From IMG/VR virus record IMGVR_UViG_3300030106_004869, positions 1,290-25,167 of that record: DNA of 23,878 nt. One strand, given 5' to 3'. Positions 9,133-12,795 of this stretch are shown one piece after another (position 1 is the first letter of the stretch; each line of letters starts with the position of its first letter). Source of the stretch: a virus. A model generated the notes under the pieces. That model was not told where the DNA came from. It ran no database searches and saw only the letters and a program-made list of their open reading frames with translations. The position numbers and the translations under genes were made by a program.

Positions 9133-9160
9133 TTGACACTGATGTACCATATGGTATCTT
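9133..9160 (+). promoter_or_regulatory. Early rightward promoter with overlapping operator
   Basis: TTGACA at 9133-9138 is a consensus -35. TATCTT at 9155-9160 is a 4/6 -10 after a 16-nt spacer. The perfect palindrome ACCATATGGT (9145-9154) fills the spacer, inside the larger GTACCATATGGTATC, so a repressor or activator probably binds here. An 8-bp inverted repeat TATCTTAA (9155-9162) / TTAAGATA (9172-9179) follows. Transcription from about 9167 would give a ~207-nt leader ending at the ribozyme cleavage site. Confidence 0.55.
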
Positions 9161-9166
9161 AAGTTA

Positions 9167-9302
9167 TCTTTTTAAGATAGACCGAATGGGTGACCGGCGA
9201 ACAAATAGACACCAAGTCTAAAGGGCGAACTGGTAAGAAAACAGAGACACTTATTAAGAGGGTATCACAGAAGATGCCACACCACCGGGAACAGTTATCA
9301 AA
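9167..9302 (+). other. Untranslated leader of the early transcript
   Basis: No credible ORF (one 11-codon frame at 9186 lacks a binding site). It holds a direct repeat GGCGAAC (9196-9202 and 9224-9230 approximately) and a hairpin GGTATC-ACAGAA-GATGCC (about 9260-9278). It also has AUAGACAC at 9205-9212, which is exactly complementary to the GUGUCUAU of the ribozyme cleavage sites; AGACAC recurs at 9245-9250. It may fold to control the ribozyme. Confidence 0.45.
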
Positions 9303-9385
9303 CTCCAAAGCTATACTGATGAGTCCTTAATGGACGAAACACTGACAGCGGGGATTTACTTCTCCGCTGTGTCTATGGCAGGGAG
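9303..9385 (+). ncRNA. Type I hammerhead ribozyme
   Basis: All invariant parts are present. The core CUGAUGA is at 9316-9322. Stem II is GUCC (9323-9326) / GGAC (9332-9335), with loop UUAAU and the required G-C at 10.1-11.1. GAA is at 9336-9338 and A15.1 at 9339. Stem III pairs ACAC (9339-9342) with GUGU (9369-9372) and continues, after a UGAC bulge, as an 8-bp hairpin (9347-9354 / 9361-9368, one G-U). C17 at 9373 completes the GUC triplet, so cleavage is predicted between 9373 and 9374. Stem I pairs GCUAUA (9310-9315) with UAUGGC (9374-9379; one G-U). After an internal loop (AAA / AG) suited to the usual loop-loop contact, CUCC (9303-9306) pairs with GGAG (9382-9385). That outer helix masks the Shine-Dalgarno of the first early gene. 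Activity is inferred from structure. Confidence 0.9.
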
Positions 9386-9390
9386 GCCAT
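9374..9390 (+). promoter_or_regulatory. Leader hairpin 1: Shine-Dalgarno in loop
   Basis: AUGGC (9375-9379) pairs with GCCAU (9386-9390) around the loop AGGGAG, presenting the ribosome-binding site four bases before the ATG at 9395. The 5' arm is the same sequence that forms ribozyme stem I, so the two folds exclude each other. Cleavage would leave this hairpin at the very 5' end of the mRNA. Confidence 0.75.
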
Positions 9391-9394
9391 CGTA

Positions 9395-9589
9395 ATGAAA
9401 CAATCAATTACTCTTACTCAAGACGAGATCGAATATCTAGCAGAATTACTAGACTATGAGATTGCTGATCCGGAACCAAGAATGGAATTTCTTCTTGAAG
9501 CCATTCAGATTAAAAAGTTAAGAGATAGGTTAAGAAAAAAATCTATCGACAATCCGGATACTCTAGAAAAATTATTTCAAAGCGCTTAA
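9395..9589 (+). CDS. Small early protein (64 aa), unknown
   Basis: First gene after the ribozyme. It starts MKQSITLTQDEIEYLAELLDYE, an acidic helical N-terminal half, then a charged helix with KKLRDRLRKKS. It could be a small two-helix regulator, but I recognise no family. The start is fixed by the Shine-Dalgarno GGGAGG in the loop of the leader hairpin. The stop codon falls in the loop of the next junction hairpin (9578-9599). Translation is probably controlled by the ribozyme fold, which masks GGAG. Confidence 0.75.
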   Translation: MKQSITLTQDEIEYLAELLDYEIADPEPRMEFLLEAIQIKKLRDRLRKKSIDNPDTLEKLFQSA

Positions 9590-9625
9590 CAGCGCTTTGG
9601 GAGTGTCTATAGCAGGGAGGCTATA
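9578..9625 (+). promoter_or_regulatory. Cassette junction 2: hairpin, cleavage-site motif, SD hairpin
   Basis: A 9-bp hairpin CAAAGCGCT-UAAC-AGCGCUUUG (9578-9599) is followed by GUGUC (9603-9607) and UAUAGC (9608-9613). That 5' arm pairs with GCUAUA (9620-9625) around AGGGAG. The 6-bp stem differs from hairpin 1 by a compensated change (G-C to A-U). The pairing to the ribozyme arm GCUAUA becomes perfect here. No CUGAUGA core lies nearby. Confidence 0.7.
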
Positions 9626-9629
9626 TATT

Positions 9630-10082
9630 ATGAAACTACCAAATAATATTAAACTACCTAATTTAGGTAGAGATATCGGTTCTTTAGCCGGTTATCAAAG
9701 AACTAGGGTTTATTATCCTAGTAATATGCTGGAAGTCGGTACACCGGCTACCATCAATATGTGGTCTGATAGCCACGCGGCAACGGTCCAGGAAGTCGTT
9801 CAGACTAAAGCGGGCCGTACTTACCTTAAGGTCACAAGAGACCATAAGGAAGTGATCGAGAAGGCTAAGAGCCTTGGCGATCAGCCTAAATACAAGTTCA
9901 CACCAAACCCTGAGGGGGGATGGTGCTGGGCTGAAGTTGTCTTCTTTAAAGACGACAACGATGAATTAGTCTTCGTACTTCAGAAGGCTGATTTCAACCA
10001 CAAGACTAACCGTTTTACTAAAAACGGCTGGGCTGTGGTCAGCCTCGGTGAGCGTCACGAATATCGTGACCCTCATTTCTAA
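9630..10082 (+). CDS. Hypothetical early protein (150 aa)
   Basis: The start is the ATG at 9630, after the loop-presented GGGAGG. A TTG-initiated longer frame from 9597 would run through the junction element and is rejected. The protein has a proline-rich N-terminus (KLPNNIKLPNLGRD), then GTPATINMWSDSHAATVQEVV, predicted beta strands (TYLKVTRDHKEV; CWAEVVFFKDDNDELVFVLQKA) and NGWAVVSLGERHEYRDPHF at the end. This looks like a compact, beta-rich domain that I associate with hypothetical proteins of marine phages, without a known function. Its GC content is slightly higher than its neighbours. Confidence 0.8.
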   Translation: MKLPNNIKLPNLGRDIGSLAGYQRTRVYYPSNMLEVGTPATINMWSDSHAATVQEVVQTKAGRTYLKVTRDHKEVIEKAKSLGDQPKYKFTPNPEGGWCWAEVVFFKDDNDELVFVLQKADFNHKTNRFTKNGWAVVSLGERHEYRDPHF

Positions 10083-10089
10083 ATTTCTC

Positions 10090-10135
10090 GGGGGCCTTTT
10101 TGGCCCCTGGTGTCTATGGCAATAAAGGAGGCCAT
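10090..10135 (+). promoter_or_regulatory. Cassette junction 3
   Basis: Hairpin GGGGCC-UUUUU-GGCCCC (10091-10107) just after the stop of the preceding gene, then GUGUC (10110-10114), UAUGGC (10115-10120), and GCCAU (10131-10135) closing a 10-nt loop that contains AAAGGAG. The GC hairpin is not followed by a U-run, so it is not a normal intrinsic terminator. Confidence 0.7.
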
Positions 10136-10140
10136 CAACA

Positions 10141-10242
10141 ATGTTAAACTTTGTTATTAAAAAAATAAAAAACGTTATTGCGAATAAAGAATGGAAAGCT
10201 AATAACGAACTCTATTTAAGAAGAATCAAATTAAATGGATAG
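10141..10242 (+). CDS. Tiny early protein (33 aa), unknown
   Basis: Encodes a basic peptide starting MLNFVIKKIKNVIANKEWK and ending LYLRRIKLNG. It has a complete cassette leader (loop-presented AAAGGAG, 10 nt before ATG) and a downstream hairpin, so it is very probably translated despite its size. The first half could be an amphipathic helix. It could bind nucleic acid, membrane or a host protein; nothing decides between them. Confidence 0.65.
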   Translation: MLNFVIKKIKNVIANKEWKANNELYLRRIKLNG

Positions 10243-10249
10243 AGCACCA

Positions 10250-10291
10250 GGGGCCGCAAGGCCCCAGTGTCTATAGCAATAGGAGGCTATA
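10250..10291 (+). promoter_or_regulatory. Cassette junction 4
   Basis: Hairpin GGGGCC-GCAA-GGCCCC (10250-10265) with a GNRA tetraloop, then GUGUC (10267-10271), UAUAGC (10272-10277), an 8-nt loop AAUAGGAG and GCUAUA (10286-10291). The leader downstream of the loop is identical to junction 2 (GGAGGCTATATATTATGAAA). Confidence 0.7.
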
Positions 10292-10295
10292 TATT

Positions 10296-10643
10296 ATGAA
10301 AATAGAAAAAGAAAAATTATACACTATCAACATACTTCATCATGAAGCAGTGATGGCTGCTAAAAAAGCAGTCACTGATTTTATAGAGAAACACGGACAA
10401 CCATTTTATTGTGGTTTTGCCGGTGTTGTTGTTAAAGGTGTAAGAGGCAATTCAAGAGTAGGTAAGAGACTCAAAGAATTGGGTTTTAACGATAACTACG
10501 GCGGCGGTCTATATCTTAGTGATCCCGCGGGTTTTAATTTAACTTTTCAGTCAATGGATTTAAAAGAAATTGGCGCAGAGAAGTATGCAGAAATGTTTAG
10601 AGAGTTTGGATTTGATGCTTATATGAGTTCAAATCCGGATTAA
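10296..10643 (+). CDS. Hypothetical early protein (115 aa)
   Basis: The protein begins MKIEKEKLYTINILHHEAVM with a long N-terminal helix. A glycine-rich centre follows (CGFAGVVVKGVRGNSRVGKRL, GGGLYLSDPAG), then a C-terminal helix EKYAEMFREFGFDAYM. The alpha-then-beta-with-glycines layout recalls small phage proteins found widely in marine contigs, but I cannot name a family. The start is set by the loop-presented GGAGG of junction 4. It ends 7 nt before the next junction hairpin. Confidence 0.8.
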   Translation: MKIEKEKLYTINILHHEAVMAAKKAVTDFIEKHGQPFYCGFAGVVVKGVRGNSRVGKRLKELGFNDNYGGGLYLSDPAGFNLTFQSMDLKEIGAEKYAEMFREFGFDAYMSSNPD

Positions 10644-10649
10644 TTTATA

Positions 10650-10694
10650 GGGAGGGAAATTTAGTTTTCCCTCCCAGTGTCTATAGAAGGGAGG
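10650..10694 (+). promoter_or_regulatory. Cassette junction 5 (no SD hairpin)
   Basis: A strong 10-bp hairpin GGGAGGGAAA / UUUCCCUCCC (10650-10675), then GUGUC (10677-10681) and UAUAGA (10682-10687), then GGGAGGUGAU. The 3' arm of the usual SD hairpin is missing. Instead the binding site is extended to nine matches with the 16S rRNA 3' end (GGAGGUGAU). The cleavage-site motif is kept although the local hairpin is lost. Confidence 0.65.
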
Positions 10695-10701
10695 TGATAT
10701 C

Positions 10702-10830
10702 ATGATGTCAAAAGAGATGGCAGATATGTATGAAGCTAATGTCGGATGGGGCAAACTGTTCGCTCCAAATGATGCCGGCATCAGAGCTTTCATTAAGTTC
10801 TACATGTCATATATCAACCATAAAAATTAA
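10702..10830 (+). CDS. Tiny early protein (42 aa), unknown
   Basis: Begins MMSKEMADMYEANVGWGKLF and ends FIKFYMSYINHKN. It has the best ribosome-binding site of the block (GGAGGUGAU, 4-8 nt before two adjacent ATGs). The second ATG at 10705 is an equally possible start. Aromatic and mixed-charge composition, no transmembrane segment, no motif recognised. The following 19 nt lead into the next junction hairpin. Confidence 0.65.
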   Translation: MMSKEMADMYEANVGWGKLFAPNDAGIRAFIKFYMSYINHKN

Positions 10831-10849
10831 ATTACATAGTTACTCCCAC

Positions 10850-10903
10850 GAGGCGCGGTCCACAAACCGCGTCTCAATCAGTGTCTGTAGCATAGGAGGC
10901 TAC
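10850..10903 (+). promoter_or_regulatory. Cassette junction 6
   Basis: A 10-bp hairpin GAGGCGCGGU / ACCGCGUCUC (10850-10875, one G-U), five bases, GUGUC (10881-10885), UGUAGC (10886-10891), loop AUAGGAG, GCUAC (10899-10903). The stem GUAGC/GCUAC is a second compensated change relative to AUAGC/GCUAU. The altered base still pairs with the ribozyme arm as G-U. Confidence 0.7.
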
Positions 10904-10908
10904 CAAGA

Positions 10909-11082
10909 ATGAACTTAATAATAGAACAAAAGAAAGTATATGGGAACGATCTCATATATCCAATTTGTGACAAAGCTAAAAAACTTTGTTCATTAACCGG
11001 CCAAAAAACTTTTAATAAGTTTGCAATAAATAAATTAAAAGAACTTGGCTATACATTCACACAAAAAGAAGTGAGTCTTTAA
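10909..11082 (+). CDS. Hypothetical early protein (57 aa)
   Basis: Begins MNLIIEQKKVYGNDLIYPIC, then KAKKLCSLTGQKTFNKFAINKLKELGYTF. The last third looks like two short helices of the type seen in small DNA- or RNA-binding domains, and the protein is basic. I recall similar short proteins in marine phages but no function. The start is fixed by GGAGG in the junction 6 loop. Its TAA is immediately followed by the ATG of the next gene, so the two form a translational pair. Confidence 0.75.
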   Translation: MNLIIEQKKVYGNDLIYPICDKAKKLCSLTGQKTFNKFAINKLKELGYTFTQKEVSL

Positions 11083-11220
11083 ATGAAAGAATACATTATC
11101 GAAGTAGAAAATGAAAACGAAGATACTTTAGACATGATTACAGAAGCATTAAACGCTTTTAATATTAGTGCTTATGTCTATGAGAAAGAAGAAGAAGAGG
11201 AGGCTACCAAGAATGAGTGA
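11083..11220 (+). CDS. Tiny acidic protein (45 aa)
   Basis: The ATG directly follows the preceding stop (TAAATG), so expression is probably by re-initiation; only a weak purine stretch precedes it. The sequence MKEYIIEVENENEDTLDMIT has a beta strand and helix typical of very small alpha-beta domains, then NISAYVYEK. The end is a run of glutamates encoded by the purine-rich stretch that also serves as the next gene's Shine-Dalgarno. The reading frame overlaps the next gene by 8 nt. The C-terminal EEEEEATKNE looks acquired by read-through into a former leader element. Confidence 0.6.
   Translation: MKEYIIEVENENEDTLDMITEALNAFNISAYVYEKEEEEEATKNE
11198..11216 (+). repeat. 19-nt copy of the junction 6 leader inside a coding region
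   Basis: AGGAGGCTACCAAGAATGA here is identical to 10894-10912. The upstream half of the element is degraded (ATGTCTATGAG instead of GTGTCTGTAGC), so neither the SD hairpin nor a full cleavage site remains. It still supplies the Shine-Dalgarno and start for the next gene. Confidence 0.7.
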
Positions 11221-11518
11221 AGAACTAAAGTTAGTTATAAAACGATCTAATCCTTATGAAAAACTAGATTTCATTGATAATAATATTAACGATATTATAC
11301 CGGTGATTGAAAAAACTGATATTGATTACAAAGATATCATTCTTCAAAAACTTAGACGCATTCAAGATATTCTAGATAGGCATCATGGATTACTTTTATA
11401 CGCTAAAAAAAACCATGGTTTTGATTTAACTAAAATCTTAAATGATTGGTATTCAGATCAAAACTGGGAAGGACATGAAATAATGAAAGCATACAACGGA
11501 CCGGACGAAAATGATTAA
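11213..11518 (+). CDS. Hypothetical early protein (101 aa)
   Basis: The ATG at 11213 is used because GAGGAGG lies 7-9 nt upstream; a longer frame from a GTG at 11168 reads through that site and is rejected. The protein is helical: MSEELKLVIKRSNPYEKLDF, then DIIPVIEKTDIDYKDIILQKLRRIQDIL, then LLLYAKKNHGFDLTKILNDWY. No domain recognised. It overlaps the gene before by 8 nt and the gene after by 8 nt (ATGATTAA), so the genes from 10909 to 11690 form one coupled unit. Confidence 0.75.
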   Translation: MSEELKLVIKRSNPYEKLDFIDNNINDIIPVIEKTDIDYKDIILQKLRRIQDILDRHHGLLLYAKKNHGFDLTKILNDWYSDQNWEGHEIMKAYNGPDEND

Positions 11519-11690
11519 AAGTATTTTTGAAGCGGTTGAAATAGCTGAGGGTCTTCAGGACCCTCAGGATGAAGAGCAGTATATTGAGGCATGGCAAATG
11601 TTAATTGACACCGGTTATGCCTGGACCCTCCAGGGATGGTTTGGCCGCAGAGCGGTTGAAATGATTGAGGCAGGGTATTGCACAAAATAA
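11511..11690 (+). CDS. Small phage protein with LIDTG...LQGWFGR motif (59 aa)
   Basis: Begins MIKSIFEAVEIAEGLQDPQD and contains AWQMLIDTGYAWTLQGWFGRRA then IEAGYCTK. The pattern W-Q-x-L-I-D-T-G-x-x-W-x-L-Q-G-W-F/Y-G-R is one I recognise from many short phage proteins of unknown function (a DUF7417-like family, named from memory). The gene overlaps the previous one by 8 nt and has no strong binding site of its own, so translation is probably coupled. GC content is clearly higher than in the preceding gene. Confidence 0.75.
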   Translation: MIKSIFEAVEIAEGLQDPQDEEQYIEAWQMLIDTGYAWTLQGWFGRRAVEMIEAGYCTK

Positions 11691-11700
11691 AATACATTAG

Positions 11701-11752
11701 TGCATACGCGTATATACGCGCGTATGCAGTGTCTATGGCAATAGGAGGCCAT
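11701..11752 (+). promoter_or_regulatory. Cassette junction 7
   Basis: A 10-bp hairpin UGCAUACGCG / CGCGUAUGCA (11701-11728) made of a 29-nt strictly alternating purine-pyrimidine run. It is followed without gap by GUGUC (11729-11733), UAUGGC (11734-11739), loop AAUAGGAG and GCCAU (11748-11752). The SD lies in the loop, as in junctions 1-4 and 6. Confidence 0.7.
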
Positions 11753-11757
11753 CAAAA

Positions 11758-11976
11758 ATGAACGATCAATTAAAAACAGTCGGCATGGTATCAGCTATGT
11801 TTGGTATTATGTCCGGAGACGACAGAGAAGGTAAAGTAAAATATCAAAAAAAATTTTTTGAGACAGTCAAAGGATTAAGTTTTCCGGATGATTGGGATAG
11901 TTTACCTTTAGAAGAAAAAGAGCGCAGACTAGAAGGCGTTCAAAAACTTGCATTAAACAAGGAGAATAATAAATGA
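11758..11976 (+). CDS. Hypothetical early protein (72 aa)
   Basis: Begins MNDQLKTVGMVSAMFGIMSG with a short hydrophobic helix, then a charged region (DREGKVKYQKKFFETVKG) and a C-terminal helix EEKERRLEGVQKLAL. No family recognised. The start follows the loop-presented GGAGG of junction 7. The TGA overlaps the ATG of the next gene (ATGA), so the two are coupled. Confidence 0.75.
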   Translation: MNDQLKTVGMVSAMFGIMSGDDREGKVKYQKKFFETVKGLSFPDDWDSLPLEEKERRLEGVQKLALNKENNK

Positions 11977-12275
11977 AGTATATACCAGATATTTATGAGT
12001 GGAGACGATTAACAAAATTAGATCGATACACTCATGATATGATCCATAGAATGGACGATTATGGCAGAAAAAAAGTAAAAGTGACTGCTATGGAACTTGC
12101 TATGACTGCAATCAAACGAGAGTTTGAAGATCTTATAGATGAGCATGAAGGACACAACGATAAACTTTCAGCCTCTAATAAGAAAATACTTAAAGCATTA
12201 GCAAAGATCCACAATGACTTCGGTTACAAAGTCGCCGGACAAAGCGGCGACTTTGATCACCTTGAAGTCGAGTAA
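11973..12275 (+). CDS. Hypothetical early protein (100 aa)
   Basis: Last gene of the cassette block. Begins MKYIPDIYEWRRLTKLDRYT. A long helical region follows (AMELAMTAIKREFEDLIDEH; ASNKKILKALAKIHNDFGYK). The 4-nt ATGA overlap and AAGGAG 10 nt upstream set the start. No recognised domain. It is followed at 12284-12301 by a GC hairpin like the other junctions but without the GUGUC motif, consistent with the end of the array. Confidence 0.75.
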   Translation: MKYIPDIYEWRRLTKLDRYTHDMIHRMDDYGRKKVKVTAMELAMTAIKREFEDLIDEHEGHNDKLSASNKKILKALAKIHNDFGYKVAGQSGDFDHLEVE

Positions 12276-12283
12276 TAAATATA

Positions 12284-12301
12284 AGGGGCCTTAGGGCCCC
12301 T
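12284..12301 (+). terminator. GC hairpin at the end of the cassette block
   Basis: AGGGGCC-UUAG-GGCCCCU forms a 7-bp stem 9 nt after the last stop. It is followed by AAAUAAAAAUUUU rather than an immediate U-run, so it may be a weak terminator or a 3'-end stabiliser. Confidence 0.45.
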
Positions 12302-12313
12302 AAATAAAAATTT

Positions 12314-12339
12314 TACATATGTGTATATACGCACGCGCG
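12314..12339. repeat. 26-nt alternating purine-pyrimidine tract
   Basis: Strict alternation over 26 nt ending ACGCACGCGCG. A second tract of 20 nt at 13452-13471 ends GCGCACGCGCG, and a 29-nt tract forms the junction 7 hairpin. Such tracts can adopt Z-DNA; the shared GCACGCGCGA ending suggests a repeated element. Confidence 0.5.
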
Positions 12340-12403
12340 AGGTTGAAAAAAAATTAAAATTCTACATATAGAATATAGAGATAAAAAAAGTTTATTTTTT
12401 TTG

Positions 12404-12433
12404 TTGAATTTTTTTGAAATGTCTCGATATAGT
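12404..12433 (+). promoter_or_regulatory. Promoter candidate for the structured RNA
   Basis: TTGAAT (12404-12409) and TATAGT (12428-12433) with an 18-nt spacer. Start would be near 12440, eight bases before the closing helix of the candidate RNA. Confidence 0.45.
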
Positions 12434-12686
12434 AAGTAAGAGAAATAAAGAAAGACCTAACACTAAATAGTTTGCAAGCTGTTTAGCGGCATTCTGACTG
12501 AATAATGTCTTTAAGTCAGAGGCATAAGGTGTAAGGCCCAAGGAGCATGGACAAATGTCTGAGGACTTGGGAGATAGGCACAAGTAGATGAACATAGGGT
12601 TTATCTGACCTACCGAAAGTTGTGGGTGAAAAAACTAGCCCCACGAATGCCTTTAGGTCTTTCTTCGTTTCAATAAAGGAGGCTAT

Positions 12687-12713
12687 ATGTTTATAGTTCT
12701 TGATCCATGGTAG
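12687..12713 (+). CDS. Possible 8-codon ORF with strong ribosome-binding site
   Basis: AAUAAAGGAGGCUAU precedes an ATG that reads MFIVLDPW and stops. The leader is the 3' half of the cassette leader. The ORF is followed by a hairpin (the terminator) and then by GUGUA-UAUAGC at 12738, the 5' half of the next element. It looks like a cassette reduced to a few codons, or a leader peptide. Translation is uncertain. Confidence 0.3.
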   Translation: MFIVLDPW

Positions 12714-12736
12714 CCTTCGGGCTACCATTTTTTTTT
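12707..12736 (+). terminator. Intrinsic terminator with UUCG tetraloop
   Basis: AUGGUAGCC (12707-12715), UUCG, GGCUACCAU (12720-12728), then a run of nine U (12728-12736). A classic Rho-independent terminator for the candidate RNA and anything reading in from upstream. Confidence 0.9.
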
Positions 12737-12737
12737 A

Positions 12738-12748
12738 GTGTATATAGC
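12738..12748 (+). promoter_or_regulatory. Degenerate cleavage-site motif GUGUA-UAUAGC
   Basis: Matches the repeated site GUGUC-UAURGC except for A at the cleavage position, which hammerheads tolerate. It follows a hairpin directly, as the others do, but no Shine-Dalgarno follows. It lies just downstream of a terminator. Confidence 0.4.
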
Positions 12749-12795
12749 AAATAATTTGTTATAATTAATCATAAATTGTTAGAAAGGAAAACATA

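Follow-up and report, generated by a model that had tools for sequence, protein, structure and literature searches.

The window analyzed here, a 23,878-nucleotide stretch of viral DNA (positions 1,290 to 25,167 of IMG/VR record IMGVR_UViG_3300030106_004869, the whole of which is 25.2 kb long), carries on its + strand a predicted early operon that consists of a promoter-like site, a structured leader RNA and a run of small genes (9395-12275). The leader contains a single hammerhead ribozyme, and the 11-base sequence at which this ribozyme is predicted to cut itself recurs, each time without a catalytic core, ahead of most of the later genes. The source virus is probably a marine phage of the HTVC023P/HTVC027P terminase group, because its large terminase (TerL) is 57-61% identical to those of the Pelagibacter phages HTVC023P and HTVC027P, phage 023Pt_psg01 and phage DSL-LC04. 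None of the ten operon proteins searched matched a PHROG of known function. The elements of the operon that matter for the argument are the following.

9133-9160, + strand: promoter-like site (TTGACA, 16 nt, TATCTT) from a consensus scan, 5' of the leader
9164-9302, + strand: structured leader RNA ahead of the ribozyme, from an alignment of 11 relatives
9303-9306, + strand: CUCC, a possible extension of stem I through the GGAG of the sites, present in 19 of 19 ribozymes
9310-9315, + strand: stem I arm GCUAUA (substrate recognition), invariant in 19 of 19 related ribozymes
9316-9342, + strand: core CUGAUGA, stem II (GUCC/GGAC), GAAA and CAC (stem III arm), by core consensus
9369-9379, + strand: site 1, the cis site of the ribozyme, GTGTC-TATGGC, predicted cut 9373/9374, preceded by hairpin 9345-9370
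9603-9613, + strand: site 2, coreless, GTGTC-TATAGC, predicted cut 9607/9608
10110-10120, + strand: site 3, coreless, GTGTC-TATGGC, predicted cut 10114/10115, after hairpin GGGGCC-TTTTT-GGCCCC
10267-10277, + strand: site 4, coreless, GTGTC-TATAGC, predicted cut 10271/10272, after hairpin GGGGCC-GCAA-GGCCCC
10677-10687, + strand: site 5, last base changed (TATAGA), predicted cut 10681/10682
10881-10891, + strand: site 6, TGTAGC with compensating GCTACC, predicted cut 10885/10886
11729-11739, + strand: site 7, coreless, GTGTC-TATGGC, predicted cut 11733/11734
12738-12748, + strand: site 8, GTGTA-TATAGC, no Shine-Dalgarno sequence, predicted cut 12742/12743

Several features of the leader element identify it as a type I hammerhead, a known class, for which self-cleavage can be predicted. 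The ribozyme (9310-9342) reads GCUAUA-CUGAUGA-GUCC-UUAAU-GGAC-GAAA-CAC, and together with its cis site the hammerhead spans 9303-9379, within the leader. The layout is that of type I, with an open stem I (9310-9315/9374-9379), a stem III formed by 9339-9342 and 9369-9372, and the NUH triplet GUC at 9371-9373. The CTGANGA and GAAA motifs of the core (9316-9339) are retained in 19 relatives, and in the alignment used for covariation in stems I and II (A2), which begins at the arm and excludes loop III, stem II has changes on both sides at three of its four pairs with 100% of the cells paired. The fold of 9300-9395 has a z-score of -3.9. A scan of the window for CTGANGA..GAAA returned a single candidate with a real stem II, in agreement with the earlier note on this DNA, which had placed a catalytic core at the first site only. 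The helices of the leader ahead of the ribozyme (9164-9302) likewise show changes on both sides among the 11 relatives, for instance from GC to CG, with three pair types; an Rfam scan at curated thresholds gave no family for this segment and no matches overall. This part of the leader is predicted to be released together with the ribozyme. In four relatives (G006, L011, L089 and L019) the upstream leader sequence differs and the ribozyme arms are identical.

The degenerate motif GTGTHTRTRGC has seven matches in the 23.9 kb, all on the + strand and all between 9369 and 12748 in the same operon, against a mean of 0.02 and a maximum of 1 in 100 dinucleotide shuffles. Exact copies of GTGTCTATRGC stand at 9369, 9603, 10110, 10267 and 11729, and near matches at 10677 (GTGTCTATAGA), 10881 (GTGTCTGTAGC) and 12738 (GTGTATATAGC); all eight positions had been listed before and were recovered. 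There is no additional exact site in the entire 25.2-kb record, so that the tally for the window is one core to eight sites. Two structural accompaniments can be added to the earlier description. First, nearly every site is directly preceded by a hairpin of its own, the last pair of which lies at most 6 nt away in 90% of 90 sites; the mean stability of these upstream hairpins is -16.4 kcal/mol, compared with -4.9 kcal/mol in control windows. Second, at most sites with a Shine-Dalgarno sequence a covarying local hairpin joins the six-base arm to a second arm further downstream (TATRGC..GGAG..GCYATA) and therefore competes with the ribozyme. At site 2, for example, the local hairpin occupies 9608-9625 with GGAG in its loop, and the upstream hairpin 9579-9599. 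Site 5 has lost the local hairpin and retains five ribozyme-facing bases; its orthologues in G005, G006 and L015 likewise have a changed last base (A, A and G). Site 8 lies directly 3' of a terminator-like hairpin (12707-12728), and its position is conserved as GTGTC-TRTAGC in G007, G008, G009 and G010.

Related contigs were gathered by TerL and by DNA patterns, and 22 of the same family, the window included, were compiled. Exactly one core was found in 19 of them. In the three others no core could be read: an N run in G001 falls exactly where the core would be, and contigs G010 and L098 stop short of the leader. Most contigs have several sites, up to 10, with fewer in short contigs that end near the leader. 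A related phage with the repeated site and no hammerhead, which the earlier note had named as the case that would speak against its proposal, did not turn up among those compared in which the leader is sequenced. The arm GCUAUA is unchanged in all 19 ribozymes even though 11 of the 18 readable cis sites contain a G-U pair that a one-base change in the arm would improve, as is to be expected if one arm must serve all sites. Moreover, the MKLP gene lies behind the cis site in G008, L015, L095 and L104, whereas in the window, G005 and G007 the site before it is coreless, so that the two kinds of site are interchangeable. In a nearby TerL group (L027-L038, 83-84% identical) neither core nor sites were present in the stretches examined, and several of these contigs have other intergenic hairpins. 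Four of them (L027, L029, L035 and L036) carry repeated intergenic double hairpins built on GAATACT..AGTATTC ahead of Shine-Dalgarno sequences, with no hammerhead seen. A scan of bacterial and archaeal genomes gave no copy of the window ribozyme, and blastn of the operon against cultivated phages gave no match. With the ribozyme alone as query, blastn pointed to a hammerhead in Agrobacterium phage OLIVR1, a candidate that we rejected: the match is of chance length and limited to the stem II region, and a possible second site in that phage lies inside a coding region and also looks like chance.

After removal of duplicates, 102 distinct sites were available, 90 of them coreless. Across these 90, GTGT is invariant, and position H17 is C in 85, T in three, A in two and G in none, in agreement with the NUH rule of hammerheads. 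Of the six arm positions, the first (T), third (T) and fifth (G) do not vary, the second and fourth, which face a U of the ribozyme, are A or G, and the sixth is C in 86 sites; the proposal that the arm varies only as A or G opposite U has thus been borne out, the changes being almost exclusively of that kind. The common forms are TATGGC, TATAGC and TGTAGC (the last in 32 of the 102 sites). The double-wobble form TGTGGC, whose pairing with the ribozyme would involve two G-U pairs but which would form a sound local hairpin, occurs 0 times versus 32 and 41 for the single forms (Fisher p 4e-12, a value that ignores shared ancestry). Orthologous sites change from one of the three forms to another, accompanied by compensatory changes in the local hairpin, and never pass to the double wobble; the site of the MNDQL gene, for instance, is TATGGC in the window (site 7) and TGTAGC in its orthologues in G005 and G008. 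Sites of the MSKEM gene have lost the local hairpin and retained the bases that face the ribozyme. The T at +1 is present in 90 of 90 coreless sites, and a local hairpin partner fits it in 18 of the 90. The A at +7 is equally invariant in the coreless sites of the window family and is also found at the sites of the second family described below; no model gives it a pairing partner, which suggests a tertiary contact, possibly with loop II. Complementarity is retained at targets distant from the ribozyme throughout the 90 non-cis sites, and these patterns support the view that the sites are under selection to match one shared ribozyme arm.

Scans for hammerheads whose stem III starts with CAC, and then for the arm GGUUAA, uncovered a second family of at least eight distinct contigs, each of which combines one core and the arm GGUUAA with between one and five additional copies of GTGTC-TTAACC (in the eight contigs together, 25 exact extra sites). 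Nearly all of its sites stand immediately 5' of a start codon, mostly behind a hairpin, and they have neither a Shine-Dalgarno sequence nor the local hairpin, so that the site is here reduced to what the ribozyme needs. For ten window proteins, including TerL, primase, helicases and polymerase, no homologue was found in the contigs of this family, and its terminase matches that of phage C75C1 rather than those of pelagiphages; phage C75C1, its nearest annotated relative by terminase, has neither core nor sites. Across the two families stem I shows changes on both sides at three of six pairs, with 100% of the cells paired. Judged from these alignments, arm and sites co-vary between two unrelated lineages, GCUAUA going with sites of the UAUAGC type and GGUUAA with UUAACC, which is the outcome that a comparison between phages had been suggested to look for. 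As a control, about 20 other phage hammerheads with GGUUAA have one site per core; L267, which is included here, combines three cores with three sites. Of the 248 distinct hammerheads for which the fetched loci include a cis site, the two families alone have at least two exact extra sites per core, and further multi-site hammerhead families may exist. L187 (reverse strand) has a hammerhead with the arm GTAACA and a second exact site, GTGTCTGTTAC, about 646 bases upstream of the hammerhead, adjoining a gene start and provided with a local hairpin; it possibly represents a third arm type. Stem III is shorter on average in multi-site than in single-site ribozymes (p 4e-4), but an interrupted stem III was rejected as a mark of the former, since the two groups are not separated by it (stem III has 7 bp in L018 and 6 bp in the second family) and the feature gives a hint only.

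Taken together, these observations make it very probable that one ribozyme serves many sites of the operon, whether in trans or along the same transcript, and the earlier suggestion of a single hammerhead that cuts the operon in many places thereby gains support from comparative sequence. We propose that the hammerhead in the 5' leader would first cleave itself at site 1 (9373/9374), setting free a structured leader RNA with the ribozyme and a hairpin at its end. The arms of this leader, ACAC on one side and CUCC..GCUAUA on the other, would pair with the 11-base site ahead of most later genes, leader and site would complete a hammerhead, and the cut would fall between H and U. Conceivably, the product end of site 1 folds as a leader hairpin (ACAGCGG/CCGCUGU), by which ACAC becomes available to another substrate. 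The GCYATA downstream of the cut, a copy of the ribozyme arm, could in the window family displace the ribozyme once the site is cut and allow turnover; both steps we infer from the sequences. The upstream message would gain a terminal 3' hairpin and, in the window family, the downstream message a 5' hairpin that presents the Shine-Dalgarno sequence. Consistent with this scheme, in minimum free energy dimer folds at 18 C the leader (9297-9373) forms a complete bimolecular hammerhead with each of the six coreless sites of the Shine-Dalgarno type. The expectation that a GGAG behind the sites pairs with CUCC stood in part: CUCC (9303-9306) pairs with GGAG in the dimer folds of these six sites, and site 8, at 12738, has no GGAG.

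Several points weigh against this proposal. Site 8 does not form a bimolecular hammerhead in the 18 C dimer fold. The arms are short (at 37 C, about -4.5 kcal/mol for the 6 bp of stem I and about -1.9 kcal/mol for the 4 bp of stem III), and in the window family the competing local hairpin, at -5 to -6 kcal/mol, is about as stable as stem I. After self-cleavage the ribozyme's own product strand stays tethered. The site-column statistics treat the sites as independent although they are related by ancestry, and involve no tree. Finally, the best scores with the curated hammerhead models of Rfam are 20.9 (RF00008, cut-off 48.5) and 19.5 (RF03152, cut-off 56.3); an Rfam cut-off is a database threshold and forms no part of the definition of the type I class. 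Cleavage itself, action in trans rather than along the parent transcript, turnover and the effects on stability and translation are predictions of the proposal. In its strongest form, namely that the leader ribozyme is a true RNA endonuclease which, in at least two unrelated lineages, cuts a whole operon in trans at every junction and co-evolves in its arm with its targets, we regard the proposal as likely.

One variant of the same proposal would have long-range folding bring the ribozyme to every site on the transcript that it is part of. All sites share the strand and the operon of the ribozyme and lie downstream of it, and the high local concentration would aid short arms. However, self-cleavage at site 1 should detach the ribozyme before most later sites are transcribed, and the sites lie as far as 3.4 kb away; we consider action confined to the parent transcript unlikely.

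Alternatively, the hammerhead might act in cis only, the other copies being cut by a protein endonuclease of host or phage that also cuts the first copy. Early RNA of phage T7 is processed by host RNase III, and the hairpins that flank the sites could be recognized by a protein. Phage T4 offers a further precedent in RegB, which acts on phage early RNA (PMC3014915). Nevertheless, two different protein specificities would each have to coincide with the local ribozyme arm (TATRGC in one family, TTAACC in the other), and the exclusion of G at H17, the avoidance of double wobbles and the constancy of GCUAUA against wobbling cis sites would go unexplained. In addition, no nuclease family was found among the ten operon proteins searched, which leaves host enzymes as candidates. 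Altogether, a protein nuclease appears improbable.

Two readings that dispense with cutting of the coreless copies seem to us very improbable. In one, the copies are translation elements, hairpins with the Shine-Dalgarno sequence in the loop, next to a ribozyme that acts in cis only. This accords with the covarying local hairpin, which in the window family encloses GGAG at most sites, but GTGTH lies outside that hairpin and is nonetheless almost invariant, the T at +1 is fixed mostly without a local partner, and the sites of the MSKEM gene keep the ribozyme-facing bases with no hairpin to maintain. Moreover, the double-G form would make a good local hairpin and is never seen, and the sites of the second family have neither hairpin nor Shine-Dalgarno sequence. 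In the other, the released leader would be an antisense regulator that covers the Shine-Dalgarno region and leaves the coreless sites uncut. Although CUCC and GCUAUA can pair with UAURGC..GGAG of a target mRNA, the conserved GTGT and the NUH rule are needed for cutting and not for such covering, and the second family offers no Shine-Dalgarno sequence to cover. That the copies are boundary sequences for recombination which shuffles genes among related phages is hardly credible: gene order and the gene beside the cis site do vary among relatives around a constant cassette, but compensatory changes, the match to the arm in two families and a different hairpin before each copy would be left without explanation.

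Apart from the ribozyme and its sites, a few neighboring elements deserve mention. The promoter-like site at 9133-9160 matches the consensus at 10 of 12 positions and has TG before its second hexamer; the count of such sites in the region is not above that in shuffled sequences. Near the operon end, 12473-12654 gives a sub-threshold match to manA RNA (RF01745, cut-off 55.2 bits), as do L128 (5374-5554), L130 (681-862, reverse strand) and L127 (6052-6230), with scores from 23 to 38.9 bits over the window and the three relatives; the element is probably a divergent RNA of the manA type. Furthermore, a conserved AAATAATTTGTTATAAT block at 12748-12770, 3' of site 8, contains a short palindrome (CAAATAATTTG) and a TATAAT box, and is perhaps a promoter with an operator.

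With respect to known systems, hammerheads are textbook self-cleavers, and trans cleavage by them is mostly a matter of laboratory design. RNase P is a natural trans-acting ribozyme that processes many transcripts; it is a large ribozyme with a protein, unrelated to the hammerhead, and recognizes a tRNA-like structure rather than a short complementary site. The element proposed here would resemble RNase P in that one ribozyme serves many transcripts, and differ from it in the use of a short complementary site. With type I hammerheads it shares the CUGANGA/GAAA core, the NUH triplet, three stems, an open stem I and covariation in stem II; unlike natural hammerheads in general, which mostly cut their own strand (PMC6412130), it has one core for as many as ten matching sites in a genome. 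In prophage operons, hammerheads arranged in tandem probably cut long transcripts, every cut site there having a core to itself (Perreault et al., 2011; PMC3088659). The placement of the sites is similarly suggestive of the cutting of long RNAs into gene-length messages; the later sites here are coreless, in contrast to those operons, and it is L267 that presents the usual form. Among satellite hammerheads, trans cleavage has been shown for a Schistosoma ribozyme and suggested for that of Dolichopoda; a conserved, dedicated set of targets co-varying with the ribozyme is described for neither (PMC2837043). As in T7 with RNase III and T4 with RegB, early polycistronic phage RNA would be processed at or near gene starts, but by an RNA enzyme instead of the protein enzymes of those phages (for T4, reviewed in PMC3014915). 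In the open-access literature searched we found no description of one natural hammerhead with many dedicated sites; hence, as far as could be checked, the ribozyme class is known and its multi-site use is new.

If the proposal is correct, evolution can turn a ribozyme of this kind into an RNA-processing enzyme with many targets, and its short arms and their sites would be natural ribozyme-substrate pairs ready for biotechnological use. For marine phages, it would provide a protein-free route from an early operon to single-gene messages.

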